Translations under genes and position numbers: made by a program
Notes under the pieces: model-generated
Told to the model about the DNA's origin: nothing
What the model saw: the letters and a program-made list of their open reading frames with translations, nothing else
Database searches by the model: none
Assembly: GCF_003201595.1 (NCBI RefSeq)
Contig: NZ_QJJS01000004.1
Span: 209,862-273,861 of the forward strand
From: Sphaerotilus hippei
GTDB lineage: Bacteria > Pseudomonadota > Gammaproteobacteria > Burkholderiales > Burkholderiaceae_C
DNA length: 64,000 nucleotides
Direction: 5' to 3'
Shown: positions 5,402 to 55,174 of the stretch, one piece after another
How the letters are laid out: each line of letters starts with the position of its first letter
Position numbering within the stretch: position 1 is the stretch's first letter

Positions 5402-6631
5402 ATGTCCAGCACGTCCACCCTGCCCCCCCAGGCCTCGCAGCCACCGCTGCGCCTGACCGAGCCCCGCCTCATCCATGCCTTCATCCTGCTGGTGACCAGC
5501 GGCCTGACGGTGCTGGTCACCGCCATCCTGGGCCCGAGCCTGCCGGCCATGCAGGCGCACTTCAGGGACGTGCCCGGCGCTGACTACCTCGTGCCGCTGA
5601 CGATGACCGCGCCGATGCTGATGATGGCCTGCCTGAGCGTGTTCGCCGGCGAGCTGTCGGACCGGCTGGGCCGCAAGCGCCTGCTGGTGGTCTCCACGGT
5701 GCTGTACGCCGCGGTCGGCACCGCGCCGCTCTACCTCGAGTCGCTGGGCGCCATCATCGCCAGCCGCTTCGCGCTCGGCATCCTGGAGGCGGTGCTGATG
5801 ACCGTCAGCACGACGATGATCGGCGACTACTACAGCGGCACGCGGCGCGAGCGGTTCATGTCGCTGCAGACCACGGTGTCGGCCACCTCGGCCTTCCTGC
5901 TCAACACCGTGGGCGGGGTCATCGCCGAACACGGCTGGCGCGCGCCGTATGCGGTGTTTGCCTGCAGCCTGCTGCTGGCCCCGCTGATGGTGATCTACCT
6001 GTGGGAGCCCAAGGGCCGCTCGAGCATGACCCCGGAGCAGTACGCCCAGGACAGCCGCTCCTTCCGCGCCGGCATGCTGGCCTTCAACTGCGCGCTGACC
6101 GTGCCGCTGGGCATGATGTTCCTGACCGTGCCGGTGCATTTCGGCTACCTGCACGGCGCGATCGGCGTGCAGTCGCCCGCGCAGATCGGCATCGCCTACG
6201 GCATCAACAGCCTGGGCGTGATCACCGGCACGCTGCTGTTCGGCTGGGTGCTGGCCTCGCGCCTGAAAGTGCCTTTCCAGCTGACGATCGGCGCGCTGAT
6301 CGCCGGGGTCGGCTTCGTGCTGATGCAGTCGGCCACCGACTACACGCTGCTGACCGTGGCCGGCCTGGTCAACGGCCTGGGCGCGGGCATCCTGCTGCCC
6401 ACGATGGTGACCTGGAACATGCGTGACCTGCCGGTCTCGCGCCGTGGCCTGGGCACCGGGGCCTTCCAGTCCTGCTTCTGCCTGGGCATGTTCGTCAACC
6501 CGCTGCTGATCGTGGGCATGGAGAAGCACCTGGAGATCGCCCGGGCGCACGCCATCGGTCTGGTCGGTCAGGTGATGCTGGGCCTGGCGGTGGTGGCGCT
6601 GCTGGTGGGCCTGCTGCGGCGTGGCCGCTGA
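5402..6631 (+). CDS. MFS transporter
   Basis: Major facilitator protein of 409 residues with about twelve hydrophobic segments. The loop between TM2 and TM3 carries the superfamily signature in the form GELSDRLGRKRLL. A good ribosome site (AGAGGAGAC) precedes the ATG. It is third in the lactonase operon, so uptake or export of the sugar acid/lactone substrate is likely; direction and substrate cannot be read from sequence. The stop lies 16 bp before the start chosen for the SDR gene. Confidence 0.9.
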   Translation: MSSTSTLPPQASQPPLRLTEPRLIHAFILLVTSGLTVLVTAILGPSLPAMQAHFRDVPGADYLVPLTMTAPMLMMACLSVFAGELSDRLGRKRLLVVSTVLYAAVGTAPLYLESLGAIIASRFALGILEAVLMTVSTTMIGDYYSGTRRERFMSLQTTVSATSAFLLNTVGGVIAEHGWRAPYAVFACSLLLAPLMVIYLWEPKGRSSMTPEQYAQDSRSFRAGMLAFNCALTVPLGMMFLTVPVHFGYLHGAIGVQSPAQIGIAYGINSLGVITGTLLFGWVLASRLKVPFQLTIGALIAGVGFVLMQSATDYTLLTVAGLVNGLGAGILLPTMVTWNMRDLPVSRRGLGTGAFQSCFCLGMFVNPLLIVGMEKHLEIARAHAIGLVGQVMLGLAVVALLVGLLRRGR

Positions 6632-6647
6632 AGCGGGGCCGGCGGGC

Positions 6648-40225: not shown

Positions 40226-40834
40226 TCAGGCCAGGCCGAGCCGGTCCAGCCAGGCCTCGACCGGCTCGCCGCTGCCCATGTCGGGGGCGACCAGCCCGTC
40301 GATCATGAAGGTCGGCGTGACGTGGATGCCGTTCTGGCGCGCGTACTTCGCCTGCCACTTCAGGTCGACCTGCAGCGCCGGGCGCGCGAAGGCCTCGGTC
40401 AGGGCCACCCCGCTGTGCTGCTCGATCAGCGCCAGGAGGGCGCGTGCGCTGCAGTCGAGCAGCGGACCGGCGCAGTGGTCGGTCGGCTCGAAACGGTCGC
40501 GCTGCGCGAACACCGCGGCCATCACCGCCCTGGCGGCGGTCTTGCCCCCCTCGGTGGTGGAGGCCGCCAGGATGGCGCGCGTGATCACCGGCGAGAACAG
40601 GTGCCAGGGCTGCGACAGCAGCCGCAGCTTCAGCGTCAGCCGGTCCTCGCCGGCCCGCGCCAGCAGGTCGTCGAACTTGGCGAAGGCCCGGGCCGAGAAC
40701 GGGCAGGTCGGCTCGAGGAAGACCTCGAGCGTCTTCGGCCCCCGGCCCCAGACCAGCGGGTCGGCGGCTCGGGTGGCGGGTGCGGGGGAGGAGGTGGTGG
40801 TGCTCACGTGATGGGTCCGCGTCAAGGGGCTCAC
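40226..40834 (-). CDS. DsbA-like thioredoxin-fold protein with a single active-site cysteine
   Basis: About 202 residues, thioredoxin fold of the Thioredoxin_4/DsbA group: LEVFLEPTCPFSARAFAKF, long helical insert, and the cis-Pro strand HVTPTFMIDGLV. The CxxC motif is CPFS, so only one cysteine remains. No convincing signal peptide. Two GTG starts compete (40834 or 40807), neither with a good ribosome site. The gene begins 10 bp after the aldolase stop, as the seventh gene of the meta-cleavage operon; a glutathione-dependent isomerase or reductase role is conceivable but unproved. Confidence 0.8.
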   Translation of the reverse strand: MSPLTRTHHVSTTTSSPAPATRAADPLVWGRGPKTLEVFLEPTCPFSARAFAKFDDLLARAGEDRLTLKLRLLSQPWHLFSPVITRAILAASTTEGGKTAARAVMAAVFAQRDRFEPTDHCAGPLLDCSARALLALIEQHSGVALTEAFARPALQVDLKWQAKYARQNGIHVTPTFMIDGLVAPDMGSGEPVEAWLDRLGLA

Positions 40835-40844
40835 ATTGTCCAGC

Positions 40845-41882
40845 TCAAACGCCAGCCTGTGCGGCGCGCTGGCGGGCCATGGTGAGGGCCGTGTCCTCGA
40901 TCATGTCCTCCTGGCCGCCGACCATCCGGCGTCGGCCCAGCTCGACCAGCAGGTCGCGCGCCGGAATGCCGTACCGTGCGCCCGCCCGCTTGGCGAACAG
41001 CAGGAACGAGCCGTAGACGCCGGCGTAGCCCAGCGTGAGCGCGTCCCGGTCGATGCGGATCGGGAAGTCCATGATCGGCACCACCCGGTCCTCGGCGACG
41101 TCCTGGATCTTCCAGACGTCCACGCCGGTCTCGAGGCCCATGCGGTCGAGCACGGCGACGAGCACTTCCATCGGCGTGTTGCCCGCCCCGGCGCCGAGGC
41201 CCGCGGCGGCCGCGTCGATGCGGGTGGCGCCGGCCTCGATGGCGGCGACCGAGTTGGCCACGCCCATCGCCAGATTGTGGTGACCGTGGAAGCCCAGCTC
41301 GGTCTCGGGCTTGAGCGCGTCGCGCACCGCCGAGAGCCGTTCCCTGACGCCATCGGGCAGCAGGTAGCCGGCCGAGTCGGTCACGTAGACGCAGTGGGCG
41401 CCATAACCCTCCATCAGCCGGGCCTGGGTGACCAGCTGCTCCGCGCTGGCCATGTGGCTCATCATCAGGAAGCCCACCGTGTCCATGCCGAGCTTGCGGG
41501 CCTGCGTGATGTGCTGCTCCGACACGTCGGCCTCGGTGCAGTGGGTGGCCACGCGGATGGTGCCCACGCCCAGTTCATGGGCCATCTTCAGGTGGTCGAC
41601 CGTGCCGATGCCCGGCAGCAGCAGCGCCGAGACCCTGGCCTGCTTCATCAGCGGCACCACGGTGCCCAGGTATTGCTCGTCGGTGTGGGCGGGGAAACCG
41701 TAGTTGACCGAGCTGCCGCCCAGGCCGTCGCCGTGCGTGACCTCGATCAGCGGCACCCCCGCCTGATCCAGCCCTTGAGCGATCGAGCTCATCTGCTCGA
41801 GCGTCATCAGGTGGCGCTTGGGGTGCATGCCATCACGCAGCGTCATGTCGTGGAGGGTGATCTTCTTGCCTTGCAGTGTCAT
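40845..41882 (-). CDS. dmpG: 4-hydroxy-2-oxovalerate aldolase
   Basis: 345-residue class II aldolase of the DmpG/MhpE family that splits 4-hydroxy-2-oxovalerate to pyruvate and acetaldehyde. Metal and active-site residues are in [30 protein letters not shown] and [15 protein letters not shown], with the communication domain C-terminal ([13 protein letters not shown]). It forms a channelling complex with the acetaldehyde dehydrogenase encoded 18 bp upstream. Confidence 0.96.
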
Positions 41883-41900
41883 GGCTTTGCTCCGTGCGGG

Positions 41901-42836
41901 TCAGGCGGTCACCGGCTCGGCGGCCGCGGCGCGGGCCTGCAGCGTCAGCCGGCCAGCCAGGATCTCTTCGGCGAACATCTCGGCCGTGCGCGCCGCCGCC
42001 GCGGTCATGATGTCGAGGTTGCCGGCGTACCTGGGCAGGTAGTCCCCCAGGCCTTCCACCTCCAGGAAGATCGATACCCGCTGGCCGTCGAACACCGGGC
42101 CGTTGACCAGGCGGTAGCCGGGAACGTACTTCTGCACCTCGGCCAGCATGGCGTGCACGCTGGCGGTGATGGCCGCCTGGTCGGGCTCGCCCTCGACCAG
42201 GCAGTGCACGGTGTCGCGCATCATCAGCGGCGGCTCGGCCGGGTTGACGATGATGATGGCCTTGCCGCGCCGGGCGCCGCCGACCTGCTCGACCGCGCCG
42301 GCCGTGGTGCGGGTGAACTCGTCGATGTTCTTGCGCGTGCCCGGGCCGACCGAGCGGCTGGACACCGTGGCGACGATCTCGCCGTAGGCCACCGGCTGCA
42401 CGCGGCTGACCGCCGCCACCATCGGGATGGTGGCCTGGCCGCCGCAGGTCACCATGTTGACGTTCATCTCGCCCGAGCCGACGTGCTGCTTCAGGTTGAC
42501 CGGTGGCACGCAGAACGGGCCGATGGCCGCCGGCGTCAGGTCGATCATCAGCGCCCCTTCGGCATTGACCTTGCGCGAGTTCTCGGCGTGCACGTAGGCG
42601 CTGGTGGCGTCGAAGACGATCTGCACGCCATCGGCCCGCAGGTGGGGAACCAGTCCGTCGACACCGTCGGCGGTGGTCTTCAGGCCCAGTTCGCGGGCGC
42701 GTTGAAGCCCGTCGGAGGCCGGGTCGATGCCCACCATCCAGACCGGCTCGAGCACCGGGCTGCGCTGCAGCTTGGCCAGCAGGTCGGTGCCGATGTTGCC
42801 GGGCCCGATCAGGGCGCACTTGATCCTGTTGTTCAT
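41901..42836 (-). CDS. dmpF: acetaldehyde dehydrogenase (acylating)
   Basis: 311 residues, DmpF/MhpF family: [17 protein letters not shown] Rossmann motif, the catalytic Cys131 in [13 protein letters not shown], and [19 protein letters not shown]. Converts acetaldehyde from DmpG to acetyl-CoA with NAD. Starts 13 bp after the tautomerase stop. Confidence 0.96.
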
Positions 42837-42849
42837 GCTCGGCTCCCGG

Positions 42850-43041
42850 TCAGCGGCCCAGGTCCTTGGCGGTCTGGCCGGCGATGCCCCAGTTCGTCCG
42901 GGGCACCTCCTGGATCCAGACGCGGATGGCTTCCCTGGGCGCACCGGTGGCCTCGACCAGGGCGGTGCTGACCTTCTCGATGACGGCGCGCTTCTGGTCC
43001 TCGGTGCGGCCTTCGATCATGTAGATCTGTGCAAACGGCAT
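42850..43041 (-). CDS. dmpI: 4-oxalocrotonate tautomerase family protein
   Basis: 63 residues beginning Met-Pro-Phe, so Pro1 is the catalytic amine after Met removal; Arg residues near 11 and 39 ([25 protein letters not shown]) fit the family. AAGGAGAG precedes the ATG. Isomerises 2-hydroxymuconate to 2-oxo-3-hexenedioate in the oxalocrotonate branch. Too short for many gene callers, but context is firm. Confidence 0.94.
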
Positions 43042-43072
43042 GATGAACTCTCCTTGAATGCGGGATGGGGAT

Positions 43073-43861
43073 TCAGACGAAACGCAGGCTGGTGCTGCCC
43101 ATGCCCTGGACATGCAGGCAGACGTGGTCGCCGGCCCGGACCGGCACGGCCTCGGTGATGCCGCCTGACAGGATCAGCGTGCCGGCCGGGATCTCCTGAC
43201 CCCGGCGGCCCAGGTGGTTGGCAAGTTCGGCGATCGCGGTGGCCGGGTGGCCCAGCACGGCCGCACCGGCGCCGAAGGCCACCGGCTCGCCGTTCTTCTC
43301 CAGCACGACGCCGACGGTGCGCAGGTCGACCGCGTCGACCCGGGCCGGCTGGCCGCCCACCACGAAGCGGGCCGCCGAGGTGTTGTCGGCGACGACGCTC
43401 TTGAGGTCGAACTTGAAGTCCTTGTAGCGGCTGTCGATCACCTCGATGCCGGGCAGCACGAAGTCGGTGGCCTCCAGCACCGCGGCGATGTGGCAGCCCG
43501 GACCGCGCAGGGGCTTCTTCAGCACGAAGGCGATTTCCGGCTCCACCCGGGGGTGGATCAGCTCGGCGGTCCGGACCTCGCCGCCGTGCGGCACGGTGTA
43601 GTCGTCGGTCATCCAGCCGAACACGGGGCTGGTCACGCCCATCTGCTTCATCTTGGCCATCGAGGTCAGGCCGGCCTTGAGACCGGCGAGCCGGCGGCCG
43701 CGCGCCAGCTTGCGCGCCAGGATGGCGGCCTGCACGGCGTAGGCGTCTTCCCAGTCCATGCCGGGAAAGTCGTCGGTGATCCGGTGCGTGTCGCGCACCT
43801 GCAGCTGGCAGCTTTCCAGCCGTTCGGCCAGGGTTTCGATGGTGAGGTCGTCGAGGGTCAT
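43073..43861 (-). CDS. dmpH: 2-oxo-3-hexenedioate (4-oxalocrotonate) decarboxylase
   Basis: 262 residues of the MhpD/DmpH superfamily: LAGLKAGLTSMAKMKQMGV, HPRVEPEIAFVLKKPLRGPG with metal-binding Glu pair, VIDSRYKDFKFDLKSVVADN. The KxDLKSVVADN region distinguishes decarboxylase from the hydratase encoded just upstream, which is its paralogue. Mg-dependent; forms a complex with the hydratase in characterised systems. Confidence 0.92.
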   Translation of the reverse strand: MTLDDLTIETLAERLESCQLQVRDTHRITDDFPGMDWEDAYAVQAAILARKLARGRRLAGLKAGLTSMAKMKQMGVTSPVFGWMTDDYTVPHGGEVRTAELIHPRVEPEIAFVLKKPLRGPGCHIAAVLEATDFVLPGIEVIDSRYKDFKFDLKSVVADNTSAARFVVGGQPARVDAVDLRTVGVVLEKNGEPVAFGAGAAVLGHPATAIAELANHLGRRGQEIPAGTLILSGGITEAVPVRAGDHVCLHVQGMGSTSLRFV

Positions 43862-43912
43862 CGGGTGGACTCGGTGAAGGTTGAACCAGGGGTGGATCGC
43901 GCAGCCGCGTGA

Positions 43913-44725
43913 TCAGGCAAAGCGCACCGAGCATTCGCCCAGCCCGCCGATGGCGACGCGGAAGTGGTCACCGCGCTGGGCCGGCACCATCGCGCCCAGG
44001 GCGCCGGAGAGGATCACCTCGCCCGCCTTCAGGCCCATGCCCAGCCGGCCCAGCGTGTTGGCCAGCCAGGCCACCGCGTTCAGCGGCGAGCCCAGCGCGG
44101 CCGCACCGGCCCCCGTCACCACCACCTCGCCGTTCTTCTCCAGCACCATGCCGCAGGTGTGCAGGTCGATCGCCAGCGGGCTCACGGCCTGGCTGCCGAG
44201 CACGAACACGCCGCAGGAGGCGTTGTCCGCCACGGTGTCGGCGATCCTGATCTTCCAGTCGCGGATGCGCGAATCGACGATCTCGAAGCAGGGCATCACA
44301 CATTCGGTGGCGGCCAGCACGTCGGCCACGCTCACGCCCGGGCCCGTCAGGTCGCGCTTGAGCAGGAAGGCGATCTCGCCCTCGGCCTTGGGCTGGATCA
44401 GCGTGGCCATGTCGATGCTGTCGCCCTGGTGCACGATCATCGTGTCGGTCAGCATGCCGAAGTCGGGCTGGTGCACGCCCAGCAGGTCCATCACGGCCCT
44501 GGAGGTGACGCCGATCTTCTTGCCGACGAGGCGCTCGCCGTCCGCCAGCCGGCGCTGGATCAGGCGCTGCTGGATGCGGTAGGCCTGCTCGATGCCCAGC
44601 TCGGGGTGGCGACGGGTCAGCGGGTCGATCGGGGTGGCGCTGCGCAGCGCGGCGTGCAGCTCGTCGCCGAGCGCCTCGAGGTGGAGGTCGGCGGGCGTGG
44701 CGTGGAAGGGATCGTGGGCGTTCAT
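43913..44725 (-). CDS. dmpE: 2-oxopent-4-enoate hydratase
   Basis: 270 residues, MhpD/DmpE family: KKIGVTSRAVMDLLGV, QPKAEGEIAFLLKRDLTGPG and VDSRIRDWKIRIADTVADNAS. Adds water to 2-hydroxypenta-2,4-dienoate to give 4-hydroxy-2-oxovalerate, the DmpG substrate. A small upstream gap (43 bp) separates it from the dioxygenase; no clear ribosome site. Confidence 0.94.
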   Translation of the reverse strand: MNAHDPFHATPADLHLEALGDELHAALRSATPIDPLTRRHPELGIEQAYRIQQRLIQRRLADGERLVGKKIGVTSRAVMDLLGVHQPDFGMLTDTMIVHQGDSIDMATLIQPKAEGEIAFLLKRDLTGPGVSVADVLAATECVMPCFEIVDSRIRDWKIRIADTVADNASCGVFVLGSQAVSPLAIDLHTCGMVLEKNGEVVVTGAGAAALGSPLNAVAWLANTLGRLGMGLKAGEVILSGALGAMVPAQRGDHFRVAIGGLGECSVRFA

Positions 44726-44768
44726 GGTGTGTGTCGGAAGGCGGATCGATGGAGGCTCGGGCGCTCGT

Positions 44769-45695
44769 TCAGGTCACGACGCTCAGGAAGCGTTCGTTGA
44801 GCTCGCGGGTGTGATAGAAGACGCCGCGCCCCATCTCCTCCCAGGTCCAGACGGTGGGCTGCATGTCCGGGTAGAAGTCGTAGCCGCCGCAGAAGGTCTC
44901 GAAGCGGTTGCCGGACGGGTCGAAGGCGTAGATCGTGGTGCCCTTGGTGATGCCGTGGCGCATCGGGCCCATGTCCATCGCCACGCGGTGGATGGTGATC
45001 ACGTCGGCGGCCTTGAGCACCTGCTCCCAGGTGCCGAGCAGGAAGGAGGCGTGGTGCAGCGTGTCGTCACGGGCATCACGCACGAAGGCGATGTCGTGCG
45101 CCTTGTTCGAGCAGCTCATCCACACCGCCATGTCGGTCCGGCCATCGGCCATCAGCGCCCGTTCGGCCACGGTGAAGCCCAGCACCTTGCAGAACAGGTC
45201 GCGGCTGCCATCGAGGTCGTTGCCGTGGATCTGCCAGTGGTCCAGGCGGATCGGCGAGATGCCCTTGCGGCCGTCGATGATGGCCTCGGGGTTCAGGTAG
45301 CCCATCTCGTTGCCCACGTCCGTCTTGTGCGCGTACAGCTCGAAGACATGGCCGGTGGGCACCCGGAAGCGCACGCGCTCGCCGGTCTCCAGCAGCTCGC
45401 CGGCAGGGATGCGCTCGGTGGCCACGCCATAGGCCCTCAGGTCCTCTTCCAGGCGATCGAGCGCGGCGACGTCGCTGACCTTGAAGGCATAAAAATCCAT
45501 GCCGGCCCGATCGGCCTGGCGCAGGATCAGGCTGTGGTGGTCACGCTCGTCCAGGCACTTGAAGTAGGCGCGTCCCGAGGCATCACGCCCCATCGGCTTG
45601 AGTCCCATCACGTGGGTGTAAAAATGGATCGATCGCTCCAGGTCCAGAACCCGCAGCTGGCAATGTCCGGGACGGATCACACCAGTGAGTGCCAT
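44769..45695 (-). CDS. dmpB: catechol 2,3-dioxygenase
   Basis: 308-residue type I extradiol dioxygenase matching XylE/DmpB in length and pattern. Fe(II) ligands: His153 (LDHWQIHGND), His214 or 215 (TLHHASFLLG) and Glu266 (NRFETFCGG); catalytic His near 200 and HGITKGTTIYAFDPSGNR are also in place. AAGGAGAC ribosome site. First gene of the operon; a composite operator lies upstream. It cleaves catechol to 2-hydroxymuconic semialdehyde. Confidence 0.96.
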   Translation of the reverse strand: MALTGVIRPGHCQLRVLDLERSIHFYTHVMGLKPMGRDASGRAYFKCLDERDHHSLILRQADRAGMDFYAFKVSDVAALDRLEEDLRAYGVATERIPAGELLETGERVRFRVPTGHVFELYAHKTDVGNEMGYLNPEAIIDGRKGISPIRLDHWQIHGNDLDGSRDLFCKVLGFTVAERALMADGRTDMAVWMSCSNKAHDIAFVRDARDDTLHHASFLLGTWEQVLKAADVITIHRVAMDMGPMRHGITKGTTIYAFDPSGNRFETFCGGYDFYPDMQPTVWTWEEMGRGVFYHTRELNERFLSVVT

Positions 45696-45791
45696 GTCTT
45701 GTCTCCTTCGTCTCTTGTCTGATCAGGCGCTTCGTTCACATCCCCCGTCCGCTTCAGGACAGGTTCGATGCCGGGCCATGTCGGCATGATT

Positions 45792-45853
45792 CATCGGGCC
45801 GGGCCGGCCGTCCAATATCGTTGCCGTCCGGTGGCATACCTGCAGGGTATGCC
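45792..45853. promoter_or_regulatory. composite LysR-type control element of the meta-cleavage operon
   Basis: Contains CATCGGG, 11 bp, GTCCAATATCG, 15 bp, then ATACC-TGCAG-GGTAT. The last part lies inside a perfect 8-bp inverted repeat (GGCATACC/GGTATGCC, 45833-45853) and fits the ATAC-N7-GTAT consensus of CatM/BenM. Read toward the dioxygenase, CGATATTGGAC gives a TTGGAC -35-like box. The same arrangement with identical spacing occurs at 51503-51561. Confidence 0.8.
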
Positions 45854-45992
45854 GCACCGGATCCGGTGCCATCGTGGTCGATGCCGATCACGGCCGGTGA
45901 TCGCGCCCGTCATTGCGTGATCACCCGGGTGCGCCGGGGGCGCAATAGACTGGGCACCCTTCACATTCCGGGGCGGCGACGCCCTCACCTCC

Positions 45993-46703
45993 ATGCACAC
46001 CGAATGGATCAGCGTGCCCACCTCCGGCGGCACCATGGATGCCTTTTTCGTCCGCCCTCCCGCCGGCCACGGCCCGGGCCTGCTGCTGCTGCAGGAGATC
46101 TTCGGCGTGAATGCCCACGTGCGGGCGGTGGCCGAGCAGTGCGCGCTGGCCGGCTTCAGCGTGCTCGTGCCGGACCTGTTCTGGCGCGAGGCACCTCGCA
46201 TCGAGCTGGACTACGTGGGCGAGGACCGCGACCGGGCCCTGGCGCTGATGCGCACCCTGACCCGCGAGCAGGCGGTGGCCGACATGCAGGCCAGCCTCGC
46301 GGCCCTGAGGGCGCGCCCTGAATGCAGCGGCCGCGTCGGCGCGGTCGGCTACTGCATGGGCGGGCGGCTGGCCTTCCTGGCGGCGGCGCTGTGCGGGGTG
46401 GATGCGGCGGTCTGCTACTACGGCGGCGGCATCGCCGCGCAGCCGGATCTGGCCGCGCTGGCCGAGCGCATCACCGTGCCGGTGCAGTTCCACCACGCCG
46501 GCCACGACCCGAGCATCCCGCCCGAGGCGGTGGCCGCGGTGCGCACGGCGATGGCCACCGCGCCCGCCGCTGCGCAGGCCGAGTTCCACGACTACCCGCA
46601 GGCGCAGCACGGCTTCAACTGCTGGGCCCGCGCCGCGCACGACCCGGCCAGCGCGGTGCTGGCGCAGGGGCGCAGCCTGGTGTTCCTGTCTCAGCTGTTC
46701 TGA
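45993..46703 (+). CDS. dienelactone hydrolase family protein
   Basis: 236-residue alpha/beta hydrolase of the carboxymethylenebutenolidase type with the full triad: Cys121 in GYCMGGRL, Asp172 in HAGHDPSIP, His206 in QAQHGFNCW; Glu35 (LQEIFGVN) keeps the family's activating role. Divergent from the catechol dioxygenase and sharing its control region. In ortho pathways it opens dienelactone; with a meta operon the substrate is unclear. Confidence 0.92.
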   Translation: MHTEWISVPTSGGTMDAFFVRPPAGHGPGLLLLQEIFGVNAHVRAVAEQCALAGFSVLVPDLFWREAPRIELDYVGEDRDRALALMRTLTREQAVADMQASLAALRARPECSGRVGAVGYCMGGRLAFLAAALCGVDAAVCYYGGGIAAQPDLAALAERITVPVQFHHAGHDPSIPPEAVAAVRTAMATAPAAAQAEFHDYPQAQHGFNCWARAAHDPASAVLAQGRSLVFLSQLF

Positions 46704-47779
46704 GCGCAGGGTGGCGACAGGGCGGTGGGTGCAGCGCTGCCCGCGCGCTCGGCGGCCGGGCCGCGTGCGGCGCTGGCCGACGGCGCCGAGACCACCAGCA
46801 CCCGCTGCGTCGGGAACAGCGAGCTGCCGATCCAGCCCTGCACCACGCCCCACAGGCCCTGGCGGAAGAACAGCGTCACGGCGATGGCCAGCAGCCCCAG
46901 GCCCATCTGATACCAGGTGCCGTAGTCGGCGAGGAACTTGTTCATCAGCCAGAACAGCACGGCGCCGACCATCGGCCCCTCGATGCGGCCGATGCCGCCG
47001 ATGACGACGATGAAGATCGCGAAGGCGGTCCAGTTCACGCCGAAGGCCGCGTCCGGGCTGATGCGCAGGTTGCCGACGAAGTAGAGCGCACCCGCCAGGC
47101 CGCAGCCGGCGGCCGCGACCATGTAGACCCTCAGCTTCATGCGGCCGACGGCGATGCCCTGGCTCTCGGCGGCGACCGGGTTGTCGCGGATCGCCTGCAG
47201 CGCCAGGCCCTGCTTGCTGCGCAGGAAGAGGTAGATGCCGACGATGCACGCCACCACGCAGGCCACCGCGATCCAGTAGGTGGTCTGCTGGCGCACCAGC
47301 CGCGACAGGCCGCGCAGCGCGGTCAGGCTCGTGCCCGAGCCGCCGCCGACCGCCGCGATGTTGGCCACCGTCAGCCGCAGGACCTCGGCGATCACCCAGG
47401 TGCCGATGGCGAAGTAGCCGCCCTGCAGCCGGAAGGCGATCCACGACAGCGGCACGGCCATCACGCCGGCGCCCAGTGCCGCCAGCGGGATCGCGACGAA
47501 GGGGTTGATGCCGCCCAGATCGCTCAGCGCGAGCATCAGGTAGCCGCCCAGCCCGAAGAAGGCCTGCTGGCCGACCGAGACCATGCCGCCGTAGCCGGCC
47601 AGCAGGTTCCACATCATCGCGAAGATGAAGTAGCAGGAGAACTCGACCATCTCCCGCATCCATGAGGCCTCGCCCCAGAATGGCAGCGTCGTGGCCATCA
47701 CCAGCCAGGCCGCACCCAGCACCAGCGTGATCCGGCTGGCCGGGCTGCTGCGCTGCACGTTGAAATCCGTCGTCGTCAT
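46691..47779 (-). CDS. branched-chain-type ABC transporter permease (LivM family)
   Basis: 362-residue inner-membrane permease with LivM landmarks: FAMMWNLLAGYGGMVSVGQQAFFGLGGY, LRSKQGLALQAIRDNPVAAESQGI and IVVIGGIGRIEGPMVGAVLF. The second ATG was taken because ATGGAGAC, the first ATG itself, is its ribosome site. The C-terminal 40 residues are low-complexity Ala/Pro/Ser. Last gene of the ABC operon; overlaps the convergent hydrolase by 13 bp. Confidence 0.92.
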   Translation of the reverse strand: MTTTDFNVQRSSPASRITLVLGAAWLVMATTLPFWGEASWMREMVEFSCYFIFAMMWNLLAGYGGMVSVGQQAFFGLGGYLMLALSDLGGINPFVAIPLAALGAGVMAVPLSWIAFRLQGGYFAIGTWVIAEVLRLTVANIAAVGGGSGTSLTALRGLSRLVRQQTTYWIAVACVVACIVGIYLFLRSKQGLALQAIRDNPVAAESQGIAVGRMKLRVYMVAAAGCGLAGALYFVGNLRISPDAAFGVNWTAFAIFIVVIGGIGRIEGPMVGAVLFWLMNKFLADYGTWYQMGLGLLAIAVTLFFRQGLWGVVQGWIGSSLFPTQRVLVVSAPSASAARGPAAERAGSAAPTALSPPCAQNS

Positions 47780-47804
47780 CTTGTGTGTCTCCATCCGCCA
47801 GTCG

Positions 47805-48662
47805 TCATCCGCCGCGGGTTTTCGGGAACAGGCCCTGCGGTCGCACCACCAGCACCGCCAGGAAGACCAGGTGTCCGAACCACAGCCCCCAGCCGGGGTC
47901 GACCTGGAAGCCGACCTGCTGAGCGACCCCGAGCACCAGCGCGCCGGTCAGCGTGCCCCAGAACGAGCCCAATCCGCCGATGATCACCGCCTCGAAGGCG
48001 AAGAGCAGCAGCGTCGGGCCGTCGGTCGGTGCCACCGTGGTGCGCATCGACTGCAGCAGCCCGGCCAGCACGATCAGGGCAAAGGCCAGGCCGGTGGCCA
48101 TCGCGCAGACGCGCCGTGCGTCCAGCCCCATCAGCTCGGCGATGTCACGGTCGTCGGAGACGGCACGGAAAGCCCGGCCGATCGGCGTGTGGCTGAACAA
48201 CGCCTGCAGCCCGGCGGTGCACAGCAGCGCCACACCCAGGATCAGCAGCGGCAGCACGCCGATGCTGATGTCGCCCAGCGCGAGACTGCTCGTGCCCAGC
48301 CCCTCGACGGTCAGCGAGCGAGGGTCGGCCGAGAAGAGCTCCTGCAGTCCGTTCTGGACCACCACCGACAGGCCGAAGGTCACCACCAGCGAGGGCAGCG
48401 GGTCACGGCCGAGCGTGCGGTTGAGCACGCCGGCCTGCAGCGCCCAGCCGGCACCGAAGCCCAGCGGCAGCAGCAGGAGCAGCACCCACAGCGGGTGACC
48501 ACCCAGCAGCGGCGCCAGCGCGATGCCGCCGAAGGCGGCCAGCACGATGAAGTCGCCCTGCGCGATGTTGGTCAGGCGCATCACGCCGAACATCACCGAC
48601 AGGCCCTGGGCGAACAGGGCGTAGAGGCCGCCGAGCAGCAGTCCCTGGATCAGCGTTTCCAT
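47805..48662 (-). CDS. branched-chain-type ABC transporter permease (LivH family)
   Basis: 285 residues: LLLGGLYALFAQGLSVMFGVMRLTNIAQGDFIVLAAFGG, PIGRAFRAVSDDRDIAELMGLD and EAVIIGGLGSFWGTLTGALVLG, all typical LivH elements. Partner of the LivM-type permease; the operon also encodes two ATPases and a Tat-exported receptor. Confidence 0.93.
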   Translation of the reverse strand: METLIQGLLLGGLYALFAQGLSVMFGVMRLTNIAQGDFIVLAAFGGIALAPLLGGHPLWVLLLLLPLGFGAGWALQAGVLNRTLGRDPLPSLVVTFGLSVVVQNGLQELFSADPRSLTVEGLGTSSLALGDISIGVLPLLILGVALLCTAGLQALFSHTPIGRAFRAVSDDRDIAELMGLDARRVCAMATGLAFALIVLAGLLQSMRTTVAPTDGPTLLLFAFEAVIIGGLGSFWGTLTGALVLGVAQQVGFQVDPGWGLWFGHLVFLAVLVVRPQGLFPKTRGG

Positions 48663-48692
48663 GAGAGGGGGTCCTGAAAGAATGGGGCCGGT

Positions 48693-49418
48693 TCAGAGGC
48701 CGAAGTAGGCTTGGCTGATCTGCTCGCGGCTCAGCGCGCTGCTGTCGCCCTCGAGCGAGACGCGGCCTTCCTGGAAGCAGTAGACGCGGCGCGAGACCTG
48801 CTGCGCCAGCGTCACGTCCTGCTCGACGATGACCACGCTCATGCCGTCGGCGGTGATCGTGGGCATCGCCTCGTAGATCTCGCGGATGACGATCGGTGCC
48901 AGGCCCAGCGAGAGCTCGTCGCACAGCAGGATGTCGGGGTTGCTCATCAGGGCGCGGCCGATGGCCACCATCTGCTGCTGTCCGCCCGACAGTGCGCCGG
49001 ACGGATGGCGGCGCTTCTCCTTCAGGATCGGGAACATCGTGTAGAGCCGCTCCAGCGTCCACCGGCCCGGCCGGCGCGCGAAGGCGCCCATGCGCAGGTT
49101 CTCCTCGACGCTGAGGCTGGGGAAGAGCCGCCGCCCCTCCGGCACCATCGCCAGGCCGCGGCGCACGATCTCGCCGGGTGCCCGCCCGCCGATGGCCTCG
49201 CCACGCAGCCGCACCGCCCCCGGATCGACCTGGACCAGGCCCGTCAGCGATTTCAGGAAGGTGCTCTTGCCCGCGCCGTTGGCGCCGATGATCGCCACCA
49301 CCTCGCCGGCGTCGAGCCGGAAATCGATGCCGAACAGCGCCTGCGCGTCGCCGTAGCGCGCCTGCAGGCCACGGGTCTGCAGCAGCGGCGTCGCCGCTGC
49401 CCTCGTCGTCGTGTCCAT
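48693..49418 (-). CDS. ABC transporter ATP-binding protein (LivF family)
   Basis: 241 residues with Walker A GANGAGKST, Q-loop before LVQVDPG, signature LSGGQQQMVAIGRAL and Walker B ILLCDE. The residue after DE is Leu where most LivF proteins have Pro. Starts 1 bp after the LivG-type gene's stop. Confidence 0.94.
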   Translation of the reverse strand: MDTTTRAAATPLLQTRGLQARYGDAQALFGIDFRLDAGEVVAIIGANGAGKSTFLKSLTGLVQVDPGAVRLRGEAIGGRAPGEIVRRGLAMVPEGRRLFPSLSVEENLRMGAFARRPGRWTLERLYTMFPILKEKRRHPSGALSGGQQQMVAIGRALMSNPDILLCDELSLGLAPIVIREIYEAMPTITADGMSVVIVEQDVTLAQQVSRRVYCFQEGRVSLEGDSSALSREQISQAYFGL

Positions 49419-49419
49419 C

Positions 49420-50154
49420 TCAGGCCTCCATGCCCATGTAGACCCGGCGCACCTCGGGGTCGTTCATCACCGCCTGCGGCTCGCCTTCGGCCAGCTTCGC
49501 GCCGAAGTTGATGACGAAGAGCCGGTCGGCGATCGACAGCAGCGCGTGCACCACATGCTCGATCCAGACCATGGTCACGCCCGCGGCCTTGATGCGGCGC
49601 AGTTCGTCGACCAGCTCGCGCGCCTCGTGCTCGGTCAGGCCGCCGGCGATCTCGTCGAGCAGCAGCAGGTCGGGCCGGGTCGCCAGCGCACGCGCCAGCT
49701 CCAGTCGCTTGCGGTCGAGCAGCGACAGGCTGCCGGCGGCCTGGTTGGCCCTGGCCTTCAGGCCGGTCTGATCGAGGATCTCGACCGCGGTCTGCCAGGC
49801 CCGCTGCTCGGACTGGCCGCCGCCGAAGCAGGCGGCGGTGACCAGGTTCTCGAAGACCGTCATGTGGCCGAAGGGCTGCGGCACCTGGTAGCTGCGGCCG
49901 ATGCCGCGGCGGCAGCGCTGGTGCGGGGCCAGCGCGGTGACATCCCGGCCGTCGTACTCGATGCGGCCGCTGTCGGCCCGCACGTCGCCCGAGATCAGGT
50001 TGAACAGCGTGGTCTTGCCGGCGCCGTTGGGCCCGAGGATGCCGAGCGTCTCGCCACGCCTCACGTCCAGCGTGATGTCGCTGGTGACGACCAGCGCGCC
50101 GTAGCGTTTGCCGACCGCGTGCAGGCGCAGCAGGGGAGTGGGGGCGGCCACCAT
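49420..50154 (-). CDS. ABC transporter ATP-binding protein (LivG family)
   Basis: 244 residues: Walker A GPNGAGKTT, the Tyr-containing RSYQVPQPFGHMTVFENL Q-loop typical of LivG, Walker B LLLLDE and IEHVVHALLSIADRLFVI. The ABC signature is degenerate (LSLLDRKRLELARAL in place of LxxGxxR). Its ATG shares one base with the receptor gene's stop (TGATG), so the two are coupled. Confidence 0.94.
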   Translation of the reverse strand: MVAAPTPLLRLHAVGKRYGALVVTSDITLDVRRGETLGILGPNGAGKTTLFNLISGDVRADSGRIEYDGRDVTALAPHQRCRRGIGRSYQVPQPFGHMTVFENLVTAACFGGGQSEQRAWQTAVEILDQTGLKARANQAAGSLSLLDRKRLELARALATRPDLLLLDEIAGGLTEHEARELVDELRRIKAAGVTMVWIEHVVHALLSIADRLFVINFGAKLAEGEPQAVMNDPEVRRVYMGMEA

Positions 50155-51431
50155 CAGGCGTACCGGATCGGCTCGAGCGCGGCCTGCTTCGGGATGTTTG
50201 ACGCGAGCGTGTTGTCGACGATCATCAGCTCGAGCGCCTTCTTCGTGCTGCGCTTCCACTGCCCGACGACCAGCGGTGTCTTGCTGACATTGGGCACCGG
50301 GCCGGTGCGGAAGTTGACCGGCCCGACGGTGGTGGCGAGGTTCGTCTCCCGGATCGCGTCGCGGATGGCTTCGGGGCTGCGATCGGTCGAGCGCCTCAGC
50401 ACGTCGAGGGCGACCTCGAACAGCGCCTGCTTGAAGCCCAGCGTGACGATCCACGGTCGGCCCGTGGCGCCCTGGTAGGCATCGGCCAGCTCGCGCGAGC
50501 TCTGGCTGGTCATCGATGACTTGAAGGGATGGCCCGGGCTCCACATCAGCTCGACCGTCAGTCCCTCGGCACGATCGCCGAAGGCGGCCACCGCCGCGGG
50601 GAACTCGGTCGCCTTGGCCACCGTCACGATCTTCGGCCGGAAGCCCTGCTGACCGGTCTGGTTCCAGAAGTTGGCGAAGTCGGGCGGCGGCAGCACGCCG
50701 GTGACGATCTCGACCTGCTGTTTCTTGAACTCGGAAATGAAGGACGAAAAATCGTTGATCGGCGACTGGAAACGGCCGCGGTCCACCACCTTGAAGCCCC
50801 TGGTCGCCAGCGTGGAGGGGAATCCGATCCTGCCGTCACCCCAGGCGTTGCCGTCCTCGTCGTTGGGCCACAGCGCGCCGACGGCCTTGCTGGTCGGCAT
50901 CTGGCCCCACAGGCCGGCGAAGGCACCGATCACGTCCTCCAGGCCCCAGAAGAAGTGGTAGGTCCACTCGAAGCCCTTCTTCGGATCGCCCTTGCGGCCG
51001 AAGAAGTACGGCTGCCACGGCGCGTCGTTGGTGATGCAGGGCACGCCGTTGAGCTCGCACTGGTCGGCCACCGGGTTGCAGGTGCCGGGCGTGGCTGAAG
51101 CCAGCACCAGATCGACCTGGTCACGCAGGATGAGTTCGGCGGCGGCCGATCCGGCCTTGTTGGAACTGGATTGAGAATCCTTGTAGAAAATCTCCACGGC
51201 GTATTTCCGCCCACCGATGCTGATGCCGCCAGATACTGCCTTGCGGACCTGCTCCAGCGTGAATCGATCCGGTTCGGAAAATGCGGCCAGCGGCCCGGTC
51301 TGCGGGCTGACATAACCGATCCTGATGGTATTGGCGCTGCGGGCGCGGACCGGGCTTGAATTCAGCGCCGAGGCCAGCGTGCCGGCCGAAGCCACCTTCA
51401 GCAAGGTGCGCCGTGAAATTTCCTGATTCAT
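50154..51431 (-). CDS. ABC transporter substrate-binding protein (LivK-like, Tat-exported)
   Basis: 425-residue type I periplasmic receptor. Twin-arginine signal SRRTLLKVASAGTL ends near residue 35. The mature part has IRIGYVSPQTGPLAAFSE, DLVLASATPGTCNPVADQCEL and SSFISEFKKQQVEIV. CAGGAGAC precedes the chosen ATG. Length and Tat export resemble receptors for aromatic or other non-amino-acid ligands; shared control with catechol dioxygenase suggests an aromatic acid. Confidence 0.9.
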   Translation of the reverse strand: MNQEISRRTLLKVASAGTLASALNSSPVRARSANTIRIGYVSPQTGPLAAFSEPDRFTLEQVRKAVSGGISIGGRKYAVEIFYKDSQSSSNKAGSAAAELILRDQVDLVLASATPGTCNPVADQCELNGVPCITNDAPWQPYFFGRKGDPKKGFEWTYHFFWGLEDVIGAFAGLWGQMPTSKAVGALWPNDEDGNAWGDGRIGFPSTLATRGFKVVDRGRFQSPINDFSSFISEFKKQQVEIVTGVLPPPDFANFWNQTGQQGFRPKIVTVAKATEFPAAVAAFGDRAEGLTVELMWSPGHPFKSSMTSQSSRELADAYQGATGRPWIVTLGFKQALFEVALDVLRRSTDRSPEAIRDAIRETNLATTVGPVNFRTGPVPNVSKTPLVVGQWKRSTKKALELMIVDNTLASNIPKQAALEPIRYA

Positions 51432-51502
51432 CTGTCTGTCTCCTGTCATGATGGCCGGGGAACTCTTGTGGCGGGTTCACTTCCGACTGCGGCAGATCTT
51501 CC

Positions 51503-51561
51503 CATCGGGCATTTGCCGGTGTCCAATATCGATGGACTCTTCTGTCATACCTCGGGGGTAT
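51503..51561. promoter_or_regulatory. second composite LysR-type control element (ABC operon/LysR)
   Basis: CATCGGG-N11-GTCCAATATCG-N15-ATACC-TCGGG-GGTAT, the same parts and spacing as before the meta-cleavage operon. Here it sits between the ABC operon (minus) and the LysR gene (plus). Its ATAC-N7-GTAT box ends 2 bp before the LysR start codon and covers the ribosome-binding area, which would let the regulator repress itself. Confidence 0.8.
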
Positions 51562-51563
51562 TG

Positions 51564-52463
51564 TTGGAACTCAGACATCTGCGTTATTTCGAGGCGCTGG
51601 CCAGTACGCTCAATTTCACCCGGGCGGCGGAACAGCTGCACATCGCCCAGCCACCGCTGTCGCGCCAGATCCAGCAGCTCGAGGAAGAGCTCGGCGTCAT
51701 GCTGATCGACCGGTCGGTGCGGCCGCTGGCCCTGACCCGGGCCGGGGCGTTCTTCTACGAGCAGTCGACCCAGGTGCTGGGCCGCATCGAGGAGGTGATC
51801 CAGGCCACCCGGCGGCTGGGCGCGGGGCAGCGGCGCTGGCTCGGCATCGGGTTCGTGCCCTCGATGCTCTACGGCAGCCTGCCCAACACCATCCGCGGCT
51901 TCATGGACGAGCATCCGGACATCGATGTCGTGCTGTCCGAGCTGACCTCGGTGCAGCAGGCCCAGGCGCTGCAGGCCGGGCGCATCGACGTGGGGTTCGG
52001 GCGTGTCGCCATCGATGCGGAGGGGCTGCTCCACGCCCTGATCGAGGAGGAGCCGCTGATCGCCGTGCTGCCGGTCGACAGTGTGCTGGCGGACGCGCCG
52101 TCCGTGTCACTGCAGGCGCTGGCGCAGCAGCAGGTGATTCTCTATCCGTCCCAGCCCCGGCCCAGCTTCGCCGATCAGGTCGCGGCGCAGTTCCGCGTCC
52201 GGGGGTGTCCGATCGTGCGGACCTTCGAGACCAACGGCCTGCAGACCGCCATCGGCCTGGTGGCCGCAGGCATCGGGGTTTCGCTGGTGCCGCGCTCGGT
52301 GCAGCGGCTGCGGCGCGACGATGTCACCTACCGGCCGATCAGCGACCTGGGCGTCAGCTCGCCCATCCTGATGAGCACCCGCGCCTCGGACATCTCGCCG
52401 GACCTGAAGACGTTGTGCCAGACGGTGAGGGACAGCTTCTCGGGCGCAGCACGGGCGGTCTGA
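51564..52463 (+). CDS. LysR-family regulator, CatR/BenM-like
   Basis: 299 residues from a TTG start that gives the canonical M-ELRHLRYFEALASTLNFTRAAEQL opening; helix-turn-helix IAQPPLSRQIQQLEEELG is the CatM/BenM form. A longer in-frame reading from 51468 would add 32 unmatched residues and cover the operator, so it is rejected. GGGGG lies 5 bp upstream as a weak ribosome site. Likely controls the ABC operon, itself and the meta-cleavage operon through the shared ATAC-N7-GTAT boxes. Confidence 0.9.
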   Translation: MELRHLRYFEALASTLNFTRAAEQLHIAQPPLSRQIQQLEEELGVMLIDRSVRPLALTRAGAFFYEQSTQVLGRIEEVIQATRRLGAGQRRWLGIGFVPSMLYGSLPNTIRGFMDEHPDIDVVLSELTSVQQAQALQAGRIDVGFGRVAIDAEGLLHALIEEEPLIAVLPVDSVLADAPSVSLQALAQQQVILYPSQPRPSFADQVAAQFRVRGCPIVRTFETNGLQTAIGLVAAGIGVSLVPRSVQRLRRDDVTYRPISDLGVSSPILMSTRASDISPDLKTLCQTVRDSFSGAARAV

Positions 52464-53869: not shown

Positions 53870-55174
53870 TCAGGCGGCCGGACCGGCCGGCTGCGCATTC
53901 CAGTCCAGCTTGCCCGCGTCCTTGCCGGCCACCGAATACAGCGCGCCCGGCGCGTTGCGCGTCTTCTGGAAATCTTCGAGCGTCTGGCCGCGCATCGCGG
54001 CGTAGATGTGCAGGTTCGACACGCCCACCACCGCGCCCAGCTTCTCGAGCATGAAGAAGATCACGCCGTAGTGGATCAGCCCGCGCCAGTCGCGCCGGCG
54101 CACCAGCTCACGTTCCTCGTCGGTCAGGTCGGCCTCGCGCATGCAGGCGGCCTCGTCCGTCAGGAAGTGCTCGCGCCGGGCCGGCTCGATCAGGTCGTGC
54201 AGGAAGCGGTTCAGGCGGAAGGCCTTGACGCTGCGCTCGAAGTTGAACGGGTAGGTGCCCTGCAGGCGCTCGGCGCCGGCCAGCTGCGTGGCCATGGCCT
54301 GGCGATGGCGCTCGACCTCGCCGGCGATCACCGGGCCGGCCTGGTTCTCGTAGACCGCCGCGGCGATGCCGGTCATCGATGGCAGGTAGTAGGCCTGGTG
54401 CACCTTCTTCACCTGCGAGGACAGCGCACCGCGCATCGTCAGCCACATCATCACCTCGGCGCCTTCGGCACCGCCCAGCTCGACCAGCTCGGCATGGGTC
54501 AGCGAGGCCAGGCGCTCCGGGTCCTTCTCGAACAGCTCGAGGAACTGCATGTCCCACGGCGTGTTGTTGAAGCCGGCGCGCTCGCCGTGCACCTGGTGCG
54601 ACAGCCCGCCGGTGGCGACGATGACCACCCGCAGGTCCTCGGGATAGCTCTCGATGGCGCGGCGCAGCGCCTGGCCGAGCTTCCAGAAGCGCCGTGCCGA
54701 AGGCACCGGGAACTGCAGCACGCCCATCTGCAGCGGCACGATGCGCACCGGCCAGCCGGCCTCGTGCTCCCACAGCACCGACATCGGCGAGAACGCGCCG
54801 TGGTCGAGCGGCTTGCCCTGGAAGAAGGACATGTCGAACTCGTCGCACACCAGCGACTGGCCGATGTGCGCGGCCAGGCCCGGATGGCCCTGGACCGCGG
54901 GCAGGTCACGCGCACCACCCCCCTCGTCGGCCGACTCGTAGCGCTCGCCGATGCCCAGCGCGAAGGCCGAGTAGTGGTCGAAGAAGAAGGAGGTGACGTG
55001 GTCGTTGTAGGTGACGATGGCGACGTCGGGCTTGCGCTCGGCCAGCCACTGCTTGACCGGCTCGAAGGCCGCGAAGATCGGGGCCCAGACCGGGTCGTCG
55101 TGCTTCTTCTGGTCGAACGCGAAGCCGATGGTGGGCGTGTGGGAGACGGCGACGCCGCCGATGATGGTGGCCAT
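53870..55174 (-). CDS. galA: gallate dioxygenase
   Basis: 434-residue type II extradiol enzyme with LigB-like N-terminal and LigA-like C-terminal parts fused, the size and layout of GalA/DesB. Fe(II) ligands His12 (SHTPTIGF), His59 (YNDHVTSFFFDHY) and Glu240 (GGAEGAEVMMW), catalytic His near 193-196 (GGLSHQVHGER). The C-terminal RDWRGLIHYGVIFFMLEKLGAV matches remembered GalA closely. Converts gallate to 4-oxalomesaconate. The following enzymes GalB, GalC and GalD are not in the window. It is the last gene of a TRAP transporter operon. Confidence 0.93.
   Translation of the reverse strand: MATIIGGVAVSHTPTIGFAFDQKKHDDPVWAPIFAAFEPVKQWLAERKPDVAIVTYNDHVTSFFFDHYSAFALGIGERYESADEGGGARDLPAVQGHPGLAAHIGQSLVCDEFDMSFFQGKPLDHGAFSPMSVLWEHEAGWPVRIVPLQMGVLQFPVPSARRFWKLGQALRRAIESYPEDLRVVIVATGGLSHQVHGERAGFNNTPWDMQFLELFEKDPERLASLTHAELVELGGAEGAEVMMWLTMRGALSSQVKKVHQAYYLPSMTGIAAAVYENQAGPVIAGEVERHRQAMATQLAGAERLQGTYPFNFERSVKAFRLNRFLHDLIEPARREHFLTDEAACMREADLTDEERELVRRRDWRGLIHYGVIFFMLEKLGAVVGVSNLHIYAAMRGQTLEDFQKTRNAPGALYSVAGKDAGKLDWNAQPAGPAA

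Follow-up and report, generated by a model that had tools for sequence, protein, structure and literature searches.

The closest described systems are the operator-promoters of the LysR regulators CatR, CatM, BenM and ClcR, in which a recognition dyad lies beside a divergent LysR gene and a weaker dyad adjoins the -35 element (PMC6449761, PMC6628147, PMC9705993). For example, CatR/ClcR-type sites follow the consensus AkACC-N5-GGTAT (PMC6449761), PbenA carries Site 1, Site 2 and TTGAAC (PMC6628147), and CatRI has a 26-bp footprint that lengthens to 48 bp when cis,cis-muconate is present (PMC9705993). In the Comamonadaceae and Rhodocyclales, AphT, a LysR of the wider group, controls aph/dmp genes from a CatR-like site, and some CatR regulons contain COG3181 transport proteins (PMC6449761). 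Here, a 64,000-nucleotide stretch of Sphaerotilus hippei (GCF_003201595.1, contig NZ_QJJS01000004.1, positions 209,862 to 273,861; hereafter the window) was found to carry two copies of one operator-promoter of the CatR/BenM class, one ahead of a catechol meta-cleavage operon and one ahead of a Liv-type ABC-transporter operon. Both are probably used by the LysR regulator encoded at 51564, which would predict joint induction of uptake and ring cleavage. The plan of the sites is that of the known systems, whereas the targets are this operon pair in place of catBCA/ben, and one of the two sites lies ~5.7 kb from the regulator gene. A transport gene in the regulon recalls the CatR regulons with COG3181 proteins, although in this case the gene belongs to an ABC system of Liv type. 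The regulatory pair is real and of a known kind, joint control of uptake and meta-cleavage is plausible, and what looks new is the choice of targets and the use of the operator for this pair, not the operator itself. Among the openly licensed papers listed by literature searches, none reported the arrangement.

The full 28-base composite CATCGGG-N11-GTCCAATATCG-N15-ATACC-N5-GGTAT matches exactly at 45792-45850 (site 1) and 51503-51561 (site 2), both on the + strand, with the fixed bases and gap lengths agreeing and the gap bases different, as the original prediction had described; its mean count in 100 dinucleotide shuffles was 0. The 41-bp core, GTCCAATATCG-N15-ATACC-N5-GGTAT, comprises the following parts:

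45810-45850, minus strand: site 1, core operator-promoter predicted for the catechol meta-cleavage operon (exact core match)
45836-45850, no strand: site 1 recognition dyad ATACC-N5-GGTAT, with T-N11-A (consensus AkACC-N5-GGTAT, PMC6449761)
45815-45829, no strand: site 1 weaker second dyad, ATAT-N7-GTCC, like an activation binding site (ABS) or Site 2 (sequence read, operators compared by eye)
45810-45815, minus strand: site 1 TTGGAC -35 towards the catechol 2,3-dioxygenase gene
51521-51561, minus strand: site 2, core operator-promoter predicted for the ABC-transporter operon (exact match; core 21/21 in a congener, G257)
51547-51561, no strand: site 2 recognition dyad (sequence)
51526-51540, no strand: site 2 weaker second dyad, ATAT-N7-CTCT (sequence read)
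51521-51526, minus strand: site 2 TTGGAC -35 towards the gene of the transporter's substrate-binding protein

In the 4.43-Mb genome the core occurs at just these two places, whether 0 or up to 3 mismatches are allowed, while its reversed control has none at either setting; the many unrelated copies that had been named as grounds for refutation were thus not found. The dyad ATACC-N5-GGTAT alone occurs at three places (one for the reversed control), the third of which, C26:35091, is not among the places with the looser pattern GTCCAA-N20-ATAC-N7-GTAT at up to 2 mismatches. That looser pattern has three perfect matches in the genome, namely both sites and C4:35223, and three more with 2 mismatches, against none for the reversed controls. 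The C4:35223 site is the catR/catB promoter, having a CatR-like lysR on one side and, on the other, a catB-like gene that is followed by catC-, catA- and benA-like genes (catB-, catC-, catA- and benA-like names from reading the translations). All 21 core bases are identical between sites 1 and 2, whereas the gaps agree at only 7/15, 3/11 and 2/5 positions, and the flanks share 20 bases in the left 60 bp and 12 in the right 60 bp. Because gaps and flanks are unlike, recent duplication of one promoter was rejected.

On the minus strand each site reads, in order, recognition dyad, gap, weak second dyad and TTGGAC, so the promoters aim at the catechol 2,3-dioxygenase (C23O) gene (ATG at 45695) and the substrate-binding protein (SBP) gene (ATG at 51431). 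With ATAC-N7-GTAT, T-N11-A, and a second dyad and -35 two turns away, the sequence has the features of a CatR-class operator, in keeping with the earlier identification of ATAC-N7-GTAT as the CatM/BenM recognition box and of TTGGAC, present at both sites on the minus strand, as the -35. The second dyad is degenerate, most of all in site 2; it begins within GTCCAATATCG and extends into the N15 gap, and the centres of the two dyads are 21 bp, or two turns, apart. An activation site about three turns away had been proposed, which holds for GTCCAATATCG as drawn (centre 28 bp, or 2.7 turns, from the recognition site) and fails for the second dyad. At site 1 the -10 position (18-bp spacer, 45786-45791) reads AATCAT, and the -35, correctly oriented, is ~115 bp away from the start codon of C23O. 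At site 2, 2 bp separate the end of the core from the start codon of lysR.

The genes behind the two sites, with the gene divergent from C23O, are listed below (scores in bits).

44769-45695, minus strand: catechol 2,3-dioxygenase (C23O), first gene of the meta-cleavage operon (TIGR03211, 408.6 bits, cut-off 320.2)
43913-44725, minus strand: dmpE, 2-oxopent-4-enoate hydratase (TIGR03220, 446.4 bits, cut-off 408.8)
43073-43861, minus strand: dmpH-like 4-oxalocrotonate decarboxylase (PF01557; named by position and reading; 69% to a gene in genome G095)
42850-43041, minus strand: dmpI-like 4-oxalocrotonate tautomerase, 63 aa (named by reading; relative in G095 74.6%)
41901-42836, minus strand: dmpF, acetaldehyde dehydrogenase (PF09290)
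40845-41882, minus strand: dmpG, 4-hydroxy-2-oxovalerate aldolase (TIGR03217, 556.2 bits, cut-off 286)
50154-51431, minus strand: periplasmic SBP, first gene of the ABC operon (PF13458, 113.9 bits)
49420-50154, minus strand: LivG-like ATPase (named by position and reading; similar match in G095)
48693-49418, minus strand: LivF-like ATPase (UrtE/LivF models, below cut-offs)
47805-48662, minus strand: LivH-like permease (UrtB/LivH models, below cut-offs)
46691-47794, minus strand: LivM-like permease (UrtC/LivM models, below cut-offs)
45993-46703, plus strand: dienelactone-hydrolase-family gene, divergent from C23O (PF01738)
51564-52463, plus strand: CatR-lineage LysR regulator, TTG start (profiles, structure relatives, tree)

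No 2-hydroxymuconic semialdehyde dehydrogenase was recognised in the meta operon (40226-45695, the only part of the genome looked at for it), despite the dmpH- and dmpI-like genes there.

The regulator has both LysR domains, PF00126 (helix-turn-helix, 82.4 bits) and PF03466 (substrate domain, 130.3 bits), and its ortholog in the congener has an ATG start at the equivalent residue. Its best solved-structure relatives are BenM (9.8e-64) and CatM (1.4e-53). A 124-row maximum-likelihood tree, made by a quick method, places it with four other proteins (L040, L021, L015 and L034; SH-aLRT 96 for the five-row subclade) nested in a 73-row CatR/BenM group with support 97, which bears out its earlier description as CatR/BenM-like. 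Identity as BenM or CatM proper was rejected, as it scores 213 bits with NF040709 and 192.3 bits with NF040710, under the curated cut-offs of 600 and 580. All four tree neighbours lie near cat genes, divergent in three and downstream in L040, whereas this LysR is divergent from the SBP-Liv ABC operon and not from catB/catBCA; a catB-like gene (named by reading) instead adjoins another LysR of the genome, C4:35267. That true CatR (L004) falls elsewhere in the CatR/BenM group, and the LysRs with C23O neighbours, labelled AphT-like on that account, form a separate clade. These have equal operator geometry but their own operator signature and are 33-36% identical to the window LysR, which by clade and operator signature is not an AphT. 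The window branch is long (0.75, compared with 0.13-0.43 in the four sisters). Residues S100 and R147 occupy the positions of S99 and R146 of BenM in the alignment, and E161 and F292 those of R160 and Y293, on which the response of BenM to benzoate depends (PMC6628147). In RipR and BenM an Arg and a Ser of the ligand pocket touch ligand carboxylates, and the Arg in BenM binds a muconate carboxylate (PMC9637912); we take these two to be R146 and S99. A dicarboxylate such as 2-hydroxymuconate is a reasonable guess at the ligand.

The operator geometry is widespread. Scanning 200 family genomes for the composite at up to 3 mismatches gave 32 places in 24 genomes compared with 3 for the reversed control; among the 29 scan loci fetched (L011-L039, up to 3 kb each), 17 contained a LysR relative, 6 a C23O and 2 a dmpE relative, and some of the 12 with no LysR hit may be chance matches. 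At up to 1 mismatch in 399 order genomes, only the source genome matched. An operator with up to 2 mismatches stands upstream of 62/124 filtered LysR genes, the window included (21 at 0, 22 at 1 and 19 at 2), and the reversed pattern upstream of 0/124. The rows were filtered by start residue (<=5), identity (>=28%), aligned residues (>230) and length (>=250 aa) with duplicates dropped, and as the loci were chosen by similarity to the window LysR or to an AphT-like LysR, or by the pattern, 62/124 is not an unbiased rate. Four misses (L059, L060, L062 and L166) have GTCCAA one base farther by eye, so the N15 spacing is a rule but not absolute. Operators upstream of lysR occur in beta-, gamma- and alphaproteobacteria, and also in cyanobacteria (L104, L110) and Verrucomicrobiota (L117), and many genomes have the geometry ahead of cat, ben or C23O genes. 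Its presence at so many related lysR genes across phyla shows the architecture to be general for this LysR group and, in line with the published operators, ordinary for the CatR/BenM/ClcR class, contrary to the novelty that the original prediction implied. The 41-bp pattern can serve as a genome-wide marker of CatR-class promoters.

Of 13 genomes of the genus, one besides the source has the LysR at E <=1e-70 (G257, 75%). There, the genes for the SBP (86% over 356 residues on the contig) and the LysR (73%) are divergent around an operator that agrees with site 2 at 21/21 core, 6/15 gap and 2/5 inner bases, and ATCTTCCCA, at the -10 region of site 2, is kept at 9/9. A second site in this genome (C250), which departs from the loose pattern by one mismatch, is flanked by dmpP-like and dmpQ-like open reading frames (ORFs; named by reading), and its 2.8-kb locus shows no C23O.

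Links between transporter and pathway recur in more distant genomes. An SBP relative at E <=1e-60 is present in 31/250 family genomes, the source included, and in the two closest others, G095 (61%) and G196 (60%), dmp genes come first and the SBP and Liv genes after them, all on one strand. Matches in G095 run C23O, dmpE, dmpF, dmpG, dmpH, dmpI, SBP and Liv genes, the SBP match starting 73 bp after the end of that of dmpI; with ~3 kb from C23O to dmpE and 1.5 kb from dmpG to dmpH left unassigned, a single operon there is presumed rather than read. The SBP of G196 comes after dmpE-F-G-H, and a more distant dioxygenase (42%) lies upstream. Elsewhere, then, the partnership is one of gene order without the operator, while here it is divided into two units with a common operator.

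CATCGGG does not belong to the operator. It sits at the end of the -35/-10 spacer, was absent from the 26-bp flanks both of the other operators that precede lysR genes (0/61) and of the pattern-scan sites (0/31), and is CACCCGG in the congener; its inclusion in the composite was therefore rejected. The in-register run shared by the flanks of sites 1 and 2 is 8 bases long, and runs >=7 occurred in 165/49,966 pairs of 26-mers drawn at random from the window; the match is thus slightly unusual but may have arisen by chance. Among operator flanks, 42 of the 1,816 pairs left after dropping those >70% identical had runs >=7, nearly all within one clade, the across-clade cases being L021/L187, L026/L085 and L039/L123.

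The analysis shows directly what the sites and genes are, how the sites are built, that they are unique in the genome, where the regulator falls in the tree and that one congener conserves site 2; from this we infer binding, activation and autorepression, and that the LysR at 51564, not another, acts on site 1. It would hold the strong ATACC-N5-GGTAT dyad with or without inducer, and, as the site 2 dyad lies 2 bp from its own start codon, binding there would also repress lysR. With inducer, a LysR tetramer would in addition take the weak dyad 21 bp away, beside the TTGGAC -35, and activate two weak minus-strand promoters, those of the C23O-dmpEHIFG operon and the SBP-LivGFHM transporter, so that uptake and ring cleavage would be induced together. 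Joint control, which the original prediction had also proposed, is thus the best reading of the sequence; it makes a testable two-operon regulon and hints at the ligand class of an uncharacterised Liv-type transporter.

A more tentative extension is that a CatR was rewired from ortho- to meta-cleavage, a muconate-type sensor now reading 2-hydroxymuconate and switching on meta-cleavage together with an importer of catechol precursors. Membership of a CatR clade otherwise found with cat genes suggests such rewiring; 2-hydroxymuconate, the meta-pathway look-alike of muconate, is a candidate new ligand, and the long branch fits a change of ligand. The locus would then be a possible case of a regulator crossing from ortho- to meta-cleavage, with operator sharing in place of operon sharing, and operator duplication would do here what gene order does in G095 and G196.

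Several results weigh against joint control by the LysR at 51564. The top NCBIfam model for this protein is AlsR (232.5 bits, under the cut-off of 430). At site 2 the -10 position (18-bp spacer, 51497-51502) is a weak GGAAGA, and a generic sigma-70 promoter scan found no passing pair at either site. Activator-dependent genes usually have weak promoters. A C23O search of the congener G257 was empty, which at 68% genome completeness is no evidence of absence, and site 1 thus has no separate phylogenetic footprint. The 19.9 and 16 kb read of G095 and G196 contained no composite at up to 2 mismatches, nor did any of the 29 non-window SBP loci at up to 3 (0/29); the one 4-mismatch place (L146) lies inside an ATPase-like match. 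Beyond the source genome, the link between operator and transporter therefore rests on one congener. In addition, CatRI and CatRII cross-regulate in P. putida ND6 (PMC9705993), so the genome's own CatR could cross-bind. Operator models for hand-picked tree groups, partly circular because many operators came from the pattern itself, also failed to return window-clade operators to their clade, assigning 5/5 to the Pseudomonas/Cupriavidus/Alcaligenaceae CatR clade.

These models bear on the alternative that site 1 belongs to another LysR, either the true CatR (C4:35267) or the AphT-like protein (C26:14833), leaving only site 2 to the LysR at 51564. Both proteins are encoded in the source genome, AphT-type LysRs elsewhere are divergent from C23O genes with equal geometry, and CatR paralogs are able to cross-bind (PMC9705993), yet we consider this unlikely. 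The groups comprised the window clade (3 neighbours plus L014 and L040), 8 AphT-like, 10 Pseudomonas/Cupriavidus/Alcaligenaceae and 7 own-CatR-type operators. L025, as a near copy, and L092, with its 3 mismatches, were left out, as were the Halomonas group and those AphT-like rows that had no operator. Site 1 scored 40.0 with the window-clade model, 31.2 with Pseudomonas/Cupriavidus/Alcaligenaceae, 17.1 with AphT-like and 17.0 with own-CatR; the values for site 2 were 35.5, 32.5, 16.6 and 17.2, respectively. Leave-one-out assignment was correct for 23/30 (AphT-like 8/8, own-CatR 7/7, Pseudomonas/Cupriavidus/Alcaligenaceae 8/10, window clade 0/5). Together, scores and leave-one-out argue against the AphT-like and own-CatR types without singling out the window clade. 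Moreover, site 1 lacks the AphT-like signature (ATACT or ATACA before GTCCAATAC, and GATA at -10 in 7/8), shares all 21 core bases with site 2, and the C26 LysR has no composite within 250 bp upstream (best 8 mismatches). On C26 (L128), a second C23O (55%) lies beside the AphT-like LysR, which is 48% identical to the protein of L032, and ORFs that read as phenol-hydroxylase-like are close by.

Less probable still is that the LysR governs only the divergent ABC operon and that site 1 is an unregulated promoter left over from rearrangement, which would suit its missing footprint; it nonetheless has 21/21 core bases in common with site 2 while the gaps differ, and its -35 points in the right direction ~115 bp from the C23O start codon. 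Chance resemblance, conceivable for CATCGGG alone (165/49,966 random pairs), has a negligible probability for the core and is refuted by the shuffles (full pattern in 0/100) and reversed controls (core 0). In many genomes the same geometry also stands in front of cat, ben or C23O genes, against 0/124 for the reversed pattern.

Elsewhere in the window, a gallate dioxygenase is encoded nearby at 53870-55174 on the minus strand (NF009904, 759 bits, cut-off 412), giving the window two ring-cleavage systems. Three of the scanned places are also of note. At L017/L037 (G012:C50:32144-32210), two 3-mismatch composites on opposite strands have one recognition dyad in common, so a single bound dimer could serve two divergent promoters. 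An exact core match (L120, G183:C1:1532064-1532104) precedes a gene whose 338-aa product is TctC/Bug-like by reading and which may be a further transport gene governed by the operator; the 3-kb locus L014 had no LysR hit. Another exact match (L124 near 6601-6641, G016:C49:32600-32640) had no LysR hit in its 3-kb locus L033 and no aromatic gene recognised by reading nearby.

Finally, GGGGG in the site 2 recognition dyad stands at Shine-Dalgarno distance from the TTG start of lysR. The dyad doubles as the lysR Shine-Dalgarno in many genomes, such as ATACCCAGGAGGTAT-GA-ATG in G257, and a Shine-Dalgarno-like core was present, with relatedness uncorrected (Fisher p 6.5e-5), in 1/25 operators farther from lysR compared with 19/37 within 10 nt of it, the window included.

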